Shown here piece by piece: positions 1 through 57,249 of a DNA stretch of 64,000 nucleotides. The position numbers were made by a program, and so were the translations under genes. The stretch is taken from NCBI GenBank assembly GCA_014384675.1, contig JACNFK010000034.1, forward strand, positions 1 through 64,000. The letters run 5' to 3'. How positions within the stretch are numbered: position 1 is the stretch's first letter; each line of letters opens with the position of its first letter. Source of the DNA: Candidatus Thiopontia autotrophica. GTDB taxonomy: Bacteria > Pseudomonadota > Gammaproteobacteria > GCF-002020875. Below the pieces are notes generated by a model, which made no database searches, was not told where the DNA came from, and was given only the letters and a program-made list of their open reading frames with translations.

Positions 1-33
1 TTGATGGGTGGGGCCGCATTTGAGCGCGAGAAT

Positions 34-56
34 CACAATCTAACCTTATTCGTTAG
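34..56. repeat. 23-bp repeat unit, copy 1
   Basis: This 23-base unit just beyond the 3' end of the CNNM gene matches the right arm of the perfect inverted repeat at 56164-56186 in 21 of 23 positions. It ends in CCTTATTCGTTAG, which is followed here by GC. Only one arm is visible, so a partner may lie left of the window. The recurrence is seen directly. What the element is (miniature element, recombination site or terminator) is not known. Confidence 0.6.
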
Positions 57-64
57 GCAAATAC

Positions 65-49244: not shown

Positions 49245-50060
49245 TTATCCTTGCTCAGACTCTTCTTCAGTGGCAGCAACTGCTGTCTCTGCAGGCGCAT
49301 CTGCTGCTGCTTCAACCTTCTCTTTCACTGGCGCCTTCTCTGTTGCTGGCGCCTTCTCTTCAGCAGGTGCTGCTGTAGTTGTTGCCGCCTTGGCATCTAA
49401 AATCGCATCTGCAGCCGCACGAACATAGAGTTGAATTGCACGAATTGCATCATCATTTCCAGGAATCACATAATCCACATCCTCAGGATTATTATTGGTG
49501 TCTACAACCCCAATAACCGGAATTTTCAACTTTCTGGCCTCATTGATCGCAATACCTTCATGACCTGTATCAACCACGATAATTGCTGATGGCAGACCAC
49601 CCATATCCTGGATTCCACCCAATGTATGCTCAAGCTTATCCAGCTCACGAGACATCATCAGCCCCTCTTTTTTGGTCAATCTTTCCAGACGACCATCATC
49701 ACGCATCGCCTGAATATCTTTCAAACGACGAATAGACTGCTTAACAGTCTTGAAATTTGTAAGCATTCCACCAAGCCAGCGGTGGTTAACGTATGGCATA
49801 CCCGCACGCTCTGCCTCTTCGCGCACAGTCTTTTGAGCAGCACGCTTGGTTCCAACAAACAGGACCTTGCCATTCTTGGCTGCAACACCACCAATGAAGT
49901 TCATTGCATCCTGAAACATTGGCAATGTCTTCTCAAGGTTGATGATATGGATTTTGTTACGATCCCCAAAAATATATGGGGCCATCTTTGGATCCCAAAA
50001 ACGGGTCTGGTGGCCAAAATGGACACCGGCTTCAAGCATTTGTCTCATAGAAACGGACAT
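49245..50060 (-). CDS. rpsB: Small ribosomal subunit protein S2
   Basis: A 271-residue S2. The conserved body (about 1-225) begins [20 protein letters not shown] and contains [20 protein letters not shown] and the second signature [20 protein letters not shown]. The start is set at ATG 50060, where the family begins; the frame continues nine codons upstream. The C-terminus carries an extra Ala/Glu/Lys/Pro-rich tail of about 45 residues ([15 protein letters not shown]), longer than E. coli S2 and probably disordered. Confidence 0.96.
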
Positions 50061-50232
50061 ATTTTTTCTCTCTCTATATTTTCGCAACTGTTTGACTTGA
50101 TAGTTAAATAACAGTTACTTTGGGTTTAGCCTCCGCATACCTGATGACCCCAATCACCTGTTAAAGCGACACCCGGGCTCATAATGACAGCATGCGTGTG
50201 AATTAAATTTACACTTTCTCTCACAGAAAATG
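50061..50232 (-). promoter_or_regulatory. Probable rpsB leader (S2 autoregulatory region)
   Basis: The mapped promoter leaves a leader of about 170 bases before rpsB. On the minus strand it contains CCCGGGTGTCGC, TGATTGGGGTCATCA (a small stem-loop) and GTATGCGGAGGCTAAACCC (50122-50140). Gammaproteobacterial rpsB transcripts have a conserved leader through which S2 represses its own synthesis, and the GGAGGCTAAACCC segment fits my memory of it. The structure was not computed. Confidence 0.4.
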
Positions 50233-54165: not shown

Positions 54166-55404
54166 ATGGAAAGCTATATCCAGCAACTATTCGCCGACCG
54201 CATCGGTGGCAATCAGTTTGGCAAAGACACCAACATCTACAAGTTCGAAAAGATCAAACGGGCAAAGCGTGCAGCCATGGAGGCCAACCCAGAGACAGAG
54301 ATGATCGATATGGGTGTTGGGGAGCCAGACTGGATGGCAGAACCTGAGGTTATCGAGGTGCTATACCAAGAGGCCAAAAACTGGGAGAACCGTGGCTATA
54401 CCGACAATGGAGTACAGCCCTTCAAGGATGCAGCTGCCGTTTACATGGATAGTGTGTTCGGGGTCAAAGGGCTGGATCCAAACAGTGAGATCAACCATGG
54501 AATTGGCAGCAAGCCTGTTCTTGCACTACTCCCTATGGCCTTTATCAACCCCGGAGACATCACCATCATGACTACCCCGGGATACCCACTGCTGGGAACA
54601 ACCACCCAGGGAGTTGGAGGTGAAGTAGTCAACCTTCCGCTGCTAGAGGAGAATGACTTTCTTCCCGATCTGGACGCGCTCACTGACGACCAGAAGAAGA
54701 GAGCGAAACTGCTCTACCTCAACTACCCAAACAACCCCACCGGTGCAGTTGCTACCGAGACCTTCTACAAGAAGGCGATCCAGTTTGCCAAGGAGAACGG
54801 CGTCATGATCGTCTCCGACGAGGCCTATGCTGCACTCACCTTTGATGGCGAGAAACCATACTCCTTCCTCAATGTGGAGGGGGCAAAAGAGGTTGGTGTT
54901 GCCATTCAATCACTATCCAAGGCCTACAACATGACCGGATGGCGTCTGGCATTTATTGCCGGTAACGAGCTAATGGTAAAGGCGTTCGCAGCCATCAAGG
55001 ACAATAACGACTCTGGCCAGTTTGCCGCCATTCAGCAGGCTGGAGTCTACTGCCTGCAACACCCCGAGATCACCGAAAAGACCAGTGCCAAATACTCCAG
55101 AAGGCATAATCTACTGGTTGATGCACTCACCAGTGCAGGATTTGAGATCAAGAAACCCAAAGCCACATTCTACCTCTACGTAAAGGCCCCAACTGGAACC
55201 AGAGATGGAATCACATTTGACAGTGGTGAGGCATTCTCCCAATACCTGATCAAAGAGAAGATGATCTCCACCGTACCCTGGGATGATGCAGGTAACTTTA
55301 TCCGCTTCTCCGTCACCTTTGTTGCCAAGGATGAGGCCGATGAGGAGAGGGTAATTGGAGAGATCAAAAAGAGACTTGGAGGTGGGGAGTTTATTTTTGA
55401 CTAA
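54166..55404 (+). CDS. dapL: LL-diaminopimelate aminotransferase
   Basis: A 412-residue fold-type I aminotransferase. The PLP lysine is Lys252 in QSLSKAYNMTGWRLAF. Substrate-side blocks are IDMGVGEPDWMAEPEV, NRGYTDNGVQPFKDAA, HGIGSKPVLALLP and LNYPNNPTGAV. The N-terminal ~30 residues (FADRIGGNQFGK...YKFEKIKRAKR) are characteristic of DapL, which converts tetrahydrodipicolinate to LL-diaminopimelate in one step. The glnD neighbourhood in most gammaproteobacteria holds dapC/dapD of the succinylase route instead. DapL is the best match, but a DapC-like role cannot be excluded. The ribosome site (AAGGATAG) is good, and a strong terminator follows. Confidence 0.8.
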   Translation: MESYIQQLFADRIGGNQFGKDTNIYKFEKIKRAKRAAMEANPETEMIDMGVGEPDWMAEPEVIEVLYQEAKNWENRGYTDNGVQPFKDAAAVYMDSVFGVKGLDPNSEINHGIGSKPVLALLPMAFINPGDITIMTTPGYPLLGTTTQGVGGEVVNLPLLEENDFLPDLDALTDDQKKRAKLLYLNYPNNPTGAVATETFYKKAIQFAKENGVMIVSDEAYAALTFDGEKPYSFLNVEGAKEVGVAIQSLSKAYNMTGWRLAFIAGNELMVKAFAAIKDNNDSGQFAAIQQAGVYCLQHPEITEKTSAKYSRRHNLLVDALTSAGFEIKKPKATFYLYVKAPTGTRDGITFDSGEAFSQYLIKEKMISTVPWDDAGNFIRFSVTFVAKDEADEERVIGEIKKRLGGGEFIFD

Positions 55405-55429
55405 AATCCTCAACCGATAAAAAGGAAAA

Positions 55430-55463
55430 AGCCCCATGAATAAACATCATGGGGCTTTTTTTG
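55430..55463 (+). terminator. Intrinsic terminator after dapL
   Basis: AGCCCCATGA (55430-55439) and TCATGGGGCT (55447-55456) form a perfect 10-bp stem with a 7-base loop, followed by a T run through 55462. A run of A residues precedes it, so it may also act for leftward transcription from the toxin-antitoxin genes. It marks the end of the map-glnD-dapL operon and the left edge of the accessory patch. Confidence 0.9.
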
Positions 55464-55510
55464 TAATGTCTATTATCGACCCTTTTCTGCCTTTCATAAA
55501 AAACAACATG

Positions 55511-55582
55511 GCTTTCGAACGCCTACAATCACCCGACGCGTAAGGAACGCAGCGACTGTGGTGGTAGCAGTCGGGGCATTGT
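55511..55582. other. Complex hairpin of recombination-site type (attC-like?)
   Basis: Outer arms ACAATCACCCGAC and GTCGGGGCATTGT pair over 13 positions with two mismatches. Inside are GCGT-AAGGA-ACGC and, alternatively, CGACTG...CAGTCG. The structure ends in TTGTTAG, like the GTTRRRY core of integron attC sites (here GTTAGCT, so the Y/R pattern is imperfect), about 10 bases from the toxin stop codon. Size and position fit an attC behind a cassette gene. The core motif mismatch and the lack of an integrase make this tentative. Confidence 0.3.
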
Positions 55583-55586
55583 ATTG

Positions 55587-55850
55587 TTAGCTGCTTTTAT
55601 ATACTTTACTACGATGTGCGACCTTGACTACAAATACTACAAGCTCTGCATCCTGGATCTCATACAGAATTCGATACACACCATGCCTTATTCTATATTT
55701 TTCCTGCCCTGAAAGTTTAATGGAACCTTTTGCTCTTGGGTTTTTGCACAATGATTCAATCCGTTTCAGGATTTGTTTTACATCATGATTAGGGATGCTA
55801 CGTAAATCTTTAGCTACAGATTTTTTGAAAGCAAGGCTATAGCTTGCCAT
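55587..55850 (-). CDS. RelE/ParE-family toxin
   Basis: An 87-residue type II toxin. Family landmarks are YSLAFKKSVAKDLRSIP at the N-terminus, LCKNPRAKGSIKLSG and RIRHGVYRILYEIQDAELVVFVVKVAHRSKVY. The closing HRSKVY is typical of the RelE group of ribosome-dependent mRNA interferases, although ParE-like gyrase poisons share the fold. It overlaps the antitoxin gene upstream by 14 bases. Toxicity is inferred only. Confidence 0.85.
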   Translation of the reverse strand: MASYSLAFKKSVAKDLRSIPNHDVKQILKRIESLCKNPRAKGSIKLSGQEKYRIRHGVYRILYEIQDAELVVFVVKVAHRSKVYKSS

Positions 55851-56070
55851 GGGACGATAAATCTTTCAAAAGCTCTTCATAGCTTAGGATTGGCTCATCT
55901 GCTCTTTTTTCAAAAACACTCAAATCTTCCTGATCCTCTTGTAAAGCAATACGTACAGCCTCATTAACCACCTCAGATACTGAGATATGGGCTGTTGCTG
56001 CTTTCATTCGCAAAGCGAGGTGAATGCTGGGGTCAAAATAAACTGTAGATCTTTTTGATAACTCACTCAT
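55837..56070 (-). CDS. Ribbon-helix-helix antitoxin
   Basis: A 77-residue antitoxin. The N-terminal ribbon and two helices (RSTVYFDPSIHLALRMKAATAHISVSEVVNEAVRIAL, read as STVYFDPSIHLALRMKA and SVSEVVNEAVRIAL) form the DNA-binding dimer. The acidic C-terminus (EDLSVFEKRADEPILSYEELLKDL) would wrap the toxin. It is encoded directly upstream of, and overlapping, the RelE-type toxin. The upstream palindrome at 56099-56116 is the expected operator. Confidence 0.85.
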   Translation of the reverse strand: MSELSKRSTVYFDPSIHLALRMKAATAHISVSEVVNEAVRIALQEDQEDLSVFEKRADEPILSYEELLKDLSSHGKL

Positions 56071-56091
56071 AATTATAGTCCTCTTCAGCGA

Positions 56092-56120
56092 AGAATAGCG
56101 TTATGACGTCATAACGTCAA
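56092..56120 (-). promoter_or_regulatory. Promoter/operator of the RHH-RelE module
   Basis: On the minus strand TTGACG (56120-56115) and TATTCT (56097-56092) are spaced 17 bases. A perfect 18-bp palindrome, CGTTATGACGTCATAACG (56099-56116), fills the spacer, so a bound RHH dimer would block polymerase. A GAGG ribosome site precedes the ATG at 56070. Confidence 0.65.
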
Positions 56121-56134
56121 TCTTTATTTTATAG

Positions 56135-56186
56135 CTAACGAATAAGGATAGATCGTGCGCAGCCACGATCTATCCTTATTCGTTAG
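56135..56186. repeat. Perfect 23-bp inverted repeat
   Basis: Arms 56135-56157 and 56164-56186 are exact reverse complements, separated by the six bases CGCAGC. Each arm begins or ends with CTAACGAATAAGG / CCTTATTCGTTAG. The right arm recurs near the window start (34-56, 21/23). No T run follows on either side, so it is not an obvious terminator. No unpaired bases occur in the arms, which argues against an attC. It separates the first toxin-antitoxin module from the gene fragments to its right. Confidence 0.85.
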
Positions 56187-56257
56187 GGCCCGCCGCTGTT
56201 GAAGGTCAGGTCGAACACCGTGTCGGTCATCCAGCGTTTAAAGCCCGCGTTGTCCAT
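56183..56257 (-). pseudogene. Orphan 3' gene fragment (24 codons), possibly hsdR-like
   Basis: From ATG 56257 the minus strand reads MDNAGFKRWMTDTVFDLTFN then SGGP and a TAA that lies in the inverted repeat. In this frame a stop (TAA) occurs four codons upstream of the ATG. The composition is richer in G and C than the flanks. The FKRWxTDTVFxLT pattern resembles C-terminal ends of type I restriction HsdR subunits as I remember them, but the match is short. I regard it as a transplanted gene tail, not a working gene. Confidence 0.3.
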
Positions 56258-56601
56258 GTGGTGAGGTTATCGAGTTTGACTACAGAAACTTTGGAGGAAT
56301 GATCGATAGGAGTCGTGAGCTGATCAATTCTGGTGCGCAGACCATCTATGAGGCCACGTTCAGCGAAAACAGTGTGCTGGTGATGGTCGACATCCTCCAT
56401 CTCGGGGATGATAGCTGGGAGCTCTATGAGGTAAAGTCATCCACCGGGGTGAGGCCGTACCATCTGGATGATGCTGCAATTCAGTGGCATGTTCTTAAAC
56501 ATGCAGGACTCAAACTCTCAATGGCTGCAATTGTGGTGCTCAACAACCAGTACAGGCGCAAAGATGAGCTTTTCACTAGACGGGGGCGAAACCGGTATTA
56601 G
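56254..56601 (+). pseudogene. Internal fragment of a DUF2779 (PD-(D/E)XK, Cas4-like) protein
   Basis: The frame reads CGEVIEFDYRNFGG, then the block from ATG 56299: RSRELINSGAQTIYEATFSE, VMVDILHLGDDSWELYEVKS and YHLDDAAIQWHVLKHAGLKL, then VVLNNQYRRKDELF. These are consecutive blocks from the N-terminal third of DUF2779 proteins, including the nuclease-like D...EVK residues. The family is several hundred residues long. Here the N-terminal Cys-containing part and everything after residue ~95 are missing, and the last nine codons are unrelated. It has no ribosome site at a sensible start. It is best read as a recombined fragment. Confidence 0.72.
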
Positions 56602-56609
56602 CGCAAGGT

Positions 56610-56903
56610 TTAAATTGTTGGTTGCACTGTAAACTTAAATCCCAACGCCTTTGCTACTTTAGCTACTGTTGAAAATGTGGGATTACCTTCTGGAGACAAC
56701 GCCTTATAAAGCCCTTCACGAGTAATGCCTGTTTCTCTGGCAAGCTGGCTCATATTTTTAGCACGTGCAATAACTCCCAAAGCATGAACAATAAATGCTG
56801 GATCATCTCCTGCTTCTTCTAGGCAGGCTTCTAAGTACAACTGGATCTCTTCTTCGGTTTTAAGATGTTCAGCTGAATCCCAACGAGTAGTAGTAATGGT
56901 CAT
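56610..56903 (-). CDS. HigA-type antitoxin (addiction-module antidote protein)
   Basis: A 97-residue antitoxin of the putative addiction-module antidote (HTH) family. The N-terminal TTTRWDSAEHLKTEEEIQLY contacts the toxin. The helix-turn-helix is MSQLARETGITREGLYKALS followed by NPTFSTVAKVAKALGFKF. It lies three bases downstream of the toxin gene, the inverted toxin-first order of higBA-like modules. It probably represses the promoter at 57210-57238 through the palindromes there. Confidence 0.87.
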   Translation of the reverse strand: MTITTTRWDSAEHLKTEEEIQLYLEACLEEAGDDPAFIVHALGVIARAKNMSQLARETGITREGLYKALSPEGNPTFSTVAKVAKALGFKFTVQPTI

Positions 56904-56906
56904 AAT

Positions 56907-57200
56907 TCAATCCTCAATCTGCTTAGCAATTTCTTTGGCTCTTGTAATATCTGATGTTTGTGTGCTTTTATCACCGCCGGATAGAAGTATGACTACAACA
57001 GGGCCTTGTTGTATGAAATACACTCTGTAGCCTGGGCCATAAAAGATGCGTAATTCACTGACACCTTCTCCTACCGGAGCAACATCACCGAAATTACCCA
57101 TTTCCACCCTATCAATACGGGCTTGGATACGCGCTTTAGCTCTTCGGTCTCTTAAACCATCAAACCATTTGCTAAATATCTCTGTTTTTCGGATTTCCAT
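56907..57200 (-). CDS. HigB/RelE-type toxin (Gp49-like family)
   Basis: A 97-residue toxin of the Gp49-like RelE/ParE branch. Landmarks are EIFSKWFDGLRDRRAKARIQARIDR, VGEGVSELRIFYGPGYRVYFIQQG and VVILLSGGDKSTQTSDITRAKEIA. The GGDKSTQ motif is characteristic of this subgroup (in smaller blocks: IFSKWFDGLRDRRAKARIQ, SELRIFYGPGYRVYF). It is the first gene of the module and is transcribed from a promoter that abuts the tsaB 3' end. Confidence 0.88.
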   Translation of the reverse strand: MEIRKTEIFSKWFDGLRDRRAKARIQARIDRVEMGNFGDVAPVGEGVSELRIFYGPGYRVYFIQQGPVVVILLSGGDKSTQTSDITRAKEIAKQIED

Positions 57201-57202
57201 TA

Positions 57203-57249
57203 CATGTTAACTGTAGTTAACATGTCTTCATTTGTCAACTATAGTTCAC
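57203..57249 (-). promoter_or_regulatory. Promoter with two operators of the toxin-first module
   Basis: On the minus strand TTGACA (57238-57233) and TACAGT (57215-57210) are 17 bases apart. A perfect palindrome, CATGTTAACT-GT-AGTTAACATG (57203-57224), covers the -10. A related imperfect one, GTCAACTATAGTTCAC (57234-57249), covers the -35. Their centres are 28 bases apart. The second operator includes the TAG stop codon of tsaB (57239-57241). Confidence 0.7.

Follow-up and report, generated by a model that had tools for sequence, protein, structure and literature searches.

The window, the stretch of 64,000 nucleotides from Candidatus Thiopontia autotrophica that was analysed here, contains a perfect hairpin in a region of 1.76 kb (55491..57247) that also holds two toxin-antitoxin-like modules and gene remnants. 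The left arm occupies 56135..56157 on the + strand (CTAACGAATAAGGATAGATCGTG), the loop CGCAGC occupies 56158..56163, and the second arm lies at 56164..56186 on the - strand. As an earlier sequence-only reading had stated, the arms are exact complements around a loop of six bases; the fold has 23 pairs and a predicted energy of -35.7 kcal/mol. Side-by-side comparison with the family described below places the start of the conserved arm at the AAC that begins at 56137.

The same reading had placed the repeat just behind genes. At this site the gene is a remnant, the last 27 codons of an hsdR gene for type I restriction (56183..56266, - strand), and its stop codon, TAA at 56183-56185, falls within the hairpin arm. 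The remnant resembles proteins in 22 plasmid records (60-80% identity over 22 residues, best E-value 3e-3), and the eight rows listed comprise six annotated as type I restriction endonuclease subunit R and two as hypothetical protein. On the other side, 64 bases from the hairpin, a 76-codon frame free of Pfam matches (55843..56070, - strand) precedes a ParE-type toxin gene of a toxin-antitoxin pair (55587..55850, - strand; PF05016, E=1.3e-12) and by its position may encode the antitoxin. Behind the toxin gene is an attC-like site (55514..55592, - strand; AGCTAAC ... GTTCGAA, with a degenerate R' box) whose stem scores 27, against 3288 background sites of which 95% reach no more than 19 and 99% no more than 29; it fails the strict attC-shape scan described below, which returned no site in the window. 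The region further includes a fragment whose relative sits elsewhere in the nearest relative, genome G004, and an HTH gene of the antidote type, whose partner is Gp49-like (E=6.3e-5, narrowly below the family cut-off). In G004 the same two flanking genes are separated by 153 bases rather than 1.76 kb; the whole region is missing there, and no empty site for the hairpin was found.

Outside this region, an Rfam match to t44 RNA (50124-50218, - strand; 47.5 bits, E=2.9e-7) lies just upstream of the frame at 49245-50087. Membership of the hairpin in a known RNA family was rejected, the search having given one unrelated match in the window and none in seven related loci. Elsewhere in the same genome, contig C17 opens (positions 1-63, L289) with MIYTHVLNQGGKGVQSPLDNL and a stop codon, followed by a frame that we take to be PriA-like. 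This opening matches the integron-integrase model over its final 21 positions (24.8 bits, E=6.7e-5) and presumably is an integrase-typical tail; G004 has a frame similar to that of C17 behind a full integrase. The genome therefore probably carries an integron that was lost in an assembly gap.

A second copy of the arm lies at the left edge of the window (34-56, - strand), identical to the first in 21 of 23 bases with two mismatches, and CGTTAGG is present at both copies, as had been noted. Chance is a poor account of the likeness: with up to three mismatches allowed, 100 dinucleotide shuffles of the window gave no match, against three observed. Here the claim of a position behind a gene stands, the copy lying at the stop of the gene at 65-1129. 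The arm belongs to a truncated solo hairpin of the longer-looped form (1..57, - strand; its first 55 bases), 87% identical to a complete solo copy, L014, in the same-genus genome G003; the longer-looped solo form is also complete in G005 (L121, 91% identity). The window starts at base 1 of contig C34, so the arm is only 34 bases from the end of the assembly, and the contig start cuts the hairpin. A long-looped solo hairpin in L181, from a record titled Neomarinimicrobiota, shares 97 identical bases with L014 from the window's genus; such identity across supposedly different phyla reflects either recent transfer or mis-binning.

Across the whole genome (1.58 Mb in 39 contigs), a search for the 23-mer with up to three mismatches found three arms at just two places, and a reversed control pattern gave no match. 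The sequence-only reading had proposed a mobile miniature element or a recombination site family and had named two lone copies as an outcome that would count against it; that is what the genome holds, and it is outweighed by the context of the family in other genomes. The miniature-element half of the proposal is not supported for this genome. Such a family should show several copies per genome and a target duplication, and the assembly has one perfect hairpin and one partial solo copy, with no duplicated target bases seen other than AAC/GTT; palindromes as perfect as this one are rare, and a MITE family in this genome was rejected because the copy number is too low.

An intrinsic transcription terminator, which a strong hairpin directly behind a gene remnant could bring to mind, is extremely improbable. 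The earlier observation that no T run follows was borne out for both arms, the hairpin is absent from the output of a terminator scan of 55400-56700, and sequence conservation across phyla exceeds what folding would need. Because the hairpin is identical with the ends of the elements described below, a terminator was set aside as the main explanation; the repeat is no terminator, and in its own genome no multicopy miniature element either. An artefact of assembly or amplification, in which a fold-back chimera produced the palindrome, is also very unlikely, though the genome is a draft of 39 contigs with another copy of the arm at the end of a contig. Against it, the loop points one way only and is of a class known from other copies, and five further records, all of them drafts too, contain perfect hairpins of this type.

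Beyond this genome the arm is widespread. The 23-mer, with up to three mismatches, is present in 11 of 95 relatives, the window's own genome counted; no relative carried the control pattern. Named genomes scanned with AACGAATAAGGWTAGATYGTG yielded at least 119 stretches from many phyla; the titles among the matches listed include Methylobacter, Methylomonas, Accumulibacter, Ectothiorhodospira, Mariprofundus and Nitrotoga, together with Campylobacterota, Planctomycetota and many Deltaproteobacteria or Desulfo- names, mostly draft bins. In the part of the alignment inspected, most copies run on from the arm through a loop and CCACRATCT(G/T)AWCC into GTTTGTTGGACAAGCCCGG, and the bases to the left of AAC vary. 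Among the 115 copies long enough to judge (loci L122-L240 and L001-L019), as many as 100 carry a tail like GTTGGACRAGCC, an upper figure since the match tolerated up to three substitutions; nine have no second arm, and six have another tail, among which the window copy is counted twice and one is the reverse reading of L150, whose tail is on the other side. Searches of plasmid DNA with the hairpin and with the ori region of L205 gave no match.

The homology of some loci continues for 2.3-2.45 kb from the motif and identifies the owner of this end. Elements of about 2.3-2.5 kb carry genes for a tyrosine recombinase and a Y2 (HUH) transposase, and both genes are read in the direction of the motif; Y2_Tnp, Zn_Tnp_IS91 and Phage_integrase were detected in L205 and L130. 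The HUH Y2 and zinc-binding domains of the IS91 family are both present (PF04986, E=7.7e-39 and 8.6e-37; PF14319, E=9.5e-23 and 1.4e-20), and the transposase translations show HPHIH and YLGRY or YLGKY, which we take to be the HUH Y2 motifs. The two structured ends differ, as they do in IS91: the motif hairpin lies 3' of the transposase and the far end is CCGCGTAGCGGCTTCGTCCAAC. By analogy with IS91, we presume that the downstream end is ori, where transposition starts, and the upstream end ter.

The 127 motif arms come from the 119 loci among the matches listed, with four perfect hairpins counted from both arms. At least 900 bases lie downstream of 74 of them. A Y2 transposase transcribed towards the motif is found in 28 of these 74; the other 46 have none, and 26 of the 46 keep the GTTG-A-AGCC tail. 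Twenty arms reach the second end (...GCGGCTTCGTCCAAC), 14 of them at 2.3-2.5 kb. Four arms reach it at 0.38-0.66 kb (L170, L184, L212, L237), and these are likely internally deleted, non-autonomous derivatives that lack a full transposase. One arm, the outer of two tandem motifs in L174, reaches it at 3.2 kb, and another, in L198, at 5.9 kb, where the far end probably belongs to another element. The window's own genome has no Y2_Tnp gene in a search that was positive in 7 of 16 genomes, the hosts of L130 and L205 included, so the donor is absent or unassembled.

Several observations concern the elements elsewhere. The genome of L205 (G096, from a record titled Delta proteobacterium NaphS2) has 28 Y2_Tnp matches, many of equal score, and this type of element appears to have spread recently there. 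Tandem duplication of the ori hairpin ahead of a single tail occurs in L153 (4489-4551, +) and L214 (1537-1603, - strand), with steps of 42 and 46 bases. At the end of L005 (G005:C149), a further frame begins no more than about 150 bases past an ori end, and it presumably resembles a REP-associated (Y1) transposase.

The ori end of a complete element has the architecture of an attC site. It reads AAC|GAATAAGGWTAGATYGTG, loop, CCACRATCT(G/T)AWCC and GTTTGTTGGACAAGCC, and in the 100 copies with hairpin and tail the target-derived AAC can pair with an internal GTT at the inner foot; between this pairing and the second stem lies an unpaired spacer. The second stem has a one-base bulge in 89 of these 100 copies, nine have none (L150 and L171 among them) and two have another arrangement; in copies with a GTTG(G/A)A tail the second arm is normally imperfect. 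Two stem positions covary among the 90 distinct bulge-bearing copies: the first is T-A in 56 and A-T in 34, and the second T-A in 49, C-G in 37, T-G in three and C-A in one. These loci were picked by the left arm, which restricts the letters there, and the partner bases were free. The ori ends of element-bearing copies thus have both the unpaired spacer and the extrahelical base of attC, and 91 of 111 ori ends pass a strict shape test that takes in the boxes and an L stem of eight pairs with at most one bulge. As for the boxes, the left R'' half is that of the target, with RYYYAAC in 43 of 125 flanks, and R' is commonly GTTGGAC, which fits GTTRRRY.

Further attC-shaped sites number 19 across the 744 kb of motif loci; they fall in 15 of the 119 loci, and some were counted on both strands. 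By comparison, 806 kb of viral contigs gave two, and each of ten shuffles gave 0-3. The viral contigs were picked by a 14-mer and are not a neutral sample, and three such sites in 77 kb of 25 other genome loci, eight of which had been fetched for their integron integrase, give a density not below that of the motif surroundings. The window hairpin itself departs from this shape, being a perfect 23-pair stem with neither unpaired spacer nor extrahelical base. Plain attC identity, which the RYYYAAC and GTTRRRY boxes had first suggested, was dropped as the identity of the family because the conserved block turned out to extend into an element of 2.4 kb that has a Y2 transposase.

The sites of insertion also point to attC. 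In 94% of 125 flanks the AAC adjoining ori is preceded by T or C, and RYYYAAC is found in 43 of 125 left flanks against a background of 4.9%. More sharply, GCCT, GCAT or GCCC precedes AAC in 39 of the 125 distinct left flanks, compared with 0.9% of 11,763 other NNNNAAC in the same loci; followed by AAC, these are the complements of the R' boxes GTTAGGC, GTTATGC and GTTGGGC. AAC also ends the ter side, where the search for ter required it, so a duplication of three bases is possible. At the far end, attC-like flanks (p<=0.03) number four among 18 distinct ones (one of 16 in a stricter first version), and the whole distribution of these 18 flanks is not shifted towards attC (Mann-Whitney p=0.56). 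It follows that attC is a favoured target and not the only one; exclusive targeting is ruled out by this test.

Named plasmids carry relatives of the element, in which the landing point can be read directly. Their transposases are annotated as 'IS91 family transposase' or 'transposase' and lie beside a site-specific or tyrosine-type integrase, and six of the seven share the type of ori hairpin and of far end; neither end was found in the seventh, L298. In the two-gene IS91 elements of NZ_CP065043.1, NZ_CP114591.1 and NZ_LT985243.1 the gene pair and its order are as here, and the two-gene plasmid elements have an ori hairpin with AAATAAG and GTTGGACAAGCC or GTTGAACAAGCC and a second end, CGGCTTCGTTCAAC, like those described above. 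The six are nonetheless distant, with transposases only 37-38% identical (30% for L298) and another stem sequence, and the window has the hairpin alone.

NZ_LT985243.1, a plasmid of E. coli, has GTCTAAC behind aadA1 and then the ori end; the relative is inserted precisely in the R'' box of the attC of aadA, and what follows the far end we take to be the rest of that attC and then a qacEdelta1-sul1 segment. At least 5000 plasmid records match the far-side piece, and in all five records listed besides NZ_LT985243.1 the match is exact up to the AAC boundary. The flank of a Photobacterium plasmid copy (L294) belongs to a repeat found at 714 or more places in 205 records, mostly Vibrio, and the match stops at the same AAC in eight of nine other listed records and three bases further in one. 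The flank of L293 folds as attC, from GTTCAAC to GTTAAGC. Those of L292 and L297 look attC-like by eye, L297 uncertainly so, and L296 lies outside attC.

Set against the element-bearing copies, the window copy differs in having a perfect second arm and no adjoining element. Perfect arms occur in one of 369 genomes of the window's class (Gammaproteobacteria), namely its own, in one of 395 genomes of the phylum of the L205 host (L262), and, among the matches listed in the named-genome scan, in L150, L162, L171 and L218. The tail of the element is kept in L150 and L171 and absent from L162, L218, L262 and the window copy, and a further solo copy, L278, is decayed. The loops differ among these copies, so perfect arms probably arose more than once. 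The window's loop, CGCAGC, fits CGNAGC, the short loop class of other copies (CGAAGC in 11, CGTAGC in one). This gives the hairpin + polarity, and the element would accordingly have sat on the hsdR side.

Taken whole, the best explanation is that the repeat derives from an IS91-family (HUH, Y2) element of the tyrosine-recombinase subgroup and is a solo copy of its ori end, a reading to which we assign a probability of roughly 0.78. The view of an orphan ori end from a recombinase-bearing IS91-type element, with attC architecture and with attC boxes as favoured targets, is well supported. The second half of the sequence-only proposal, a family of recombination or transposition sites and not a terminator, accordingly fared better than the first: the arm is a conserved transposable-element end in many genomes, and the attC-like architecture and target preference speak for it too.

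The following sequence of events is proposed. The GAATAAGG hairpin, which in complete copies would be joined to the Y2 transposase end, acquires the attC layout (R box, unpaired spacer, and L box with extrahelical base) when the AAC of the target pairs with the internal GTT. The transposase would recognise this folded single-stranded end and join it after a target ...YAAC, with strong preference for the R'' box of attC (RYYYAAC). The opposite end terminates in GTYCAAC, and an R'' box would thereby be rebuilt for the displaced attC. In the window the body of the element is absent and the hairpin alone is left. Template-switch correction of quasi-palindromes is a known process, and it is a plausible route by which the second arm became the exact complement of the first.

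Loss of the body might have taken another route. In this account solo hairpins are excision scars of an integron integrase: flanked on one side by the attC-shaped end that belongs to it and on the other by the rebuilt attC, the element left as a cassette by recombination at G|TTRRRY, so that the next R' box now follows the hairpin. We regard this as a possible but doubtful origin. In the direction set by the loop, the hairpin is followed by GTTAGGC in L218 and L262, GTTAGGG in the window and GTTATAA in L162, not GTTGGAC, and in L140 an unconverted hairpin is followed by GTTAGAG; yet GTTRRRY is fully matched in only two of the four perfect solo hairpins. The apparent last 21 residues of an integron integrase that open C17 are in keeping with such excision, as is the distribution of the enzyme, which scores above the family cut-off in 8 of 11 motif-bearing relatives, some resting on 3-mismatch matches only, against 27 of 84 without the motif (one-sided p=0.012). 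Within the motif loci, a search in which one of three integrase queries was effective gave a single partial match, in L180, and is a weak result. Telling against excision, no + strand gene ends at the window hairpin on the side that loop polarity demands, and the perfect arms have neither the bulge nor the spacer of attC.

A different suggestion is that the palindrome is itself a tiny mobile unit, one ori end per strand, inserted at a short palindrome, either CTAG or CCTAGG or else a TA that is duplicated. The perfect solo copies are indeed flanked by T...A or longer mirrors (two bases in the window copy, one in L162, three each in L218 and L262), and both perfect copies that keep the element tail have none. 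Pairing of R'' with R', or copying of the flanks, would be expected to give mirrored bases equally well; the decayed solo copy L278 has no mirrored base, and neither of the two genomes with a perfect solo copy that were searched whole (the window's own and G627) holds a second one. We consider this suggestion improbable.

The preferred reading, an orphan ori end, may also belong to a larger picture, which we offer tentatively. There could be a clade of IS91-type elements whose transposition origin doubles as a working attC: landing after the R'' box would split one attC into two working ones, the element would become an integron cassette, and it would move both by rolling circle and by integron integrase. 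Orphan hairpins would then be scars of the second route that later became perfect palindromes.

Other mobile elements are associated with attC. Group IIC-attC introns consist of a ribozyme with a reverse transcriptase, and we know of no attC-like end in either these introns or IS1111-attC elements. Both are described as attC-targeting in the available text of PMC9229058, and the IS1111-attC elements use a different enzyme, a DEDD transposase, according to the available text of PMC11187229. IS91-like elements adjoining attC sites figure in earlier work (PMC9229058, PMC12772301, as far as their available text goes). The available account of ISShvi3 in a Shewanella integron, likened to our elements by description only, reports that no IS was seen interrupting attC sites there and describes neither an attC-shaped ori end nor insertion after the R'' box (PMC9229058). 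ISCR28, an IS91-like element beside sul4 that is likewise compared by description only, comes with a predicted attC in every copy, located at its end or immediately beyond (data unshown there), and the available text makes no mention of a tyrosine-recombinase partner (PMC12772301). In the available text of the literature searched, which included PMC9229058, PMC7923331, PMC8876359, PMC13393415 and PMC12772301 and had ISfinder outside its scope, neither an attC-shaped ori end nor insertion after R'' was found for an IS91-type element, and a link between a transposition origin and attC architecture was absent as well.

For genome annotation, hairpins of this kind are to be read as transposon ends rather than as terminators or cassette sites. 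More broadly, IS91-type and ISCR elements mobilise the genes next to them, and integrons store cassettes and rearrange them. An origin that resembles attC, together with landing in attC boxes as in the aadA attC of an E. coli plasmid, would physically link the two systems and could account for the attC sites predicted at the ends of IS91-type elements. It also raises the question of whether an integron integrase may use a transposition origin as a cassette site.
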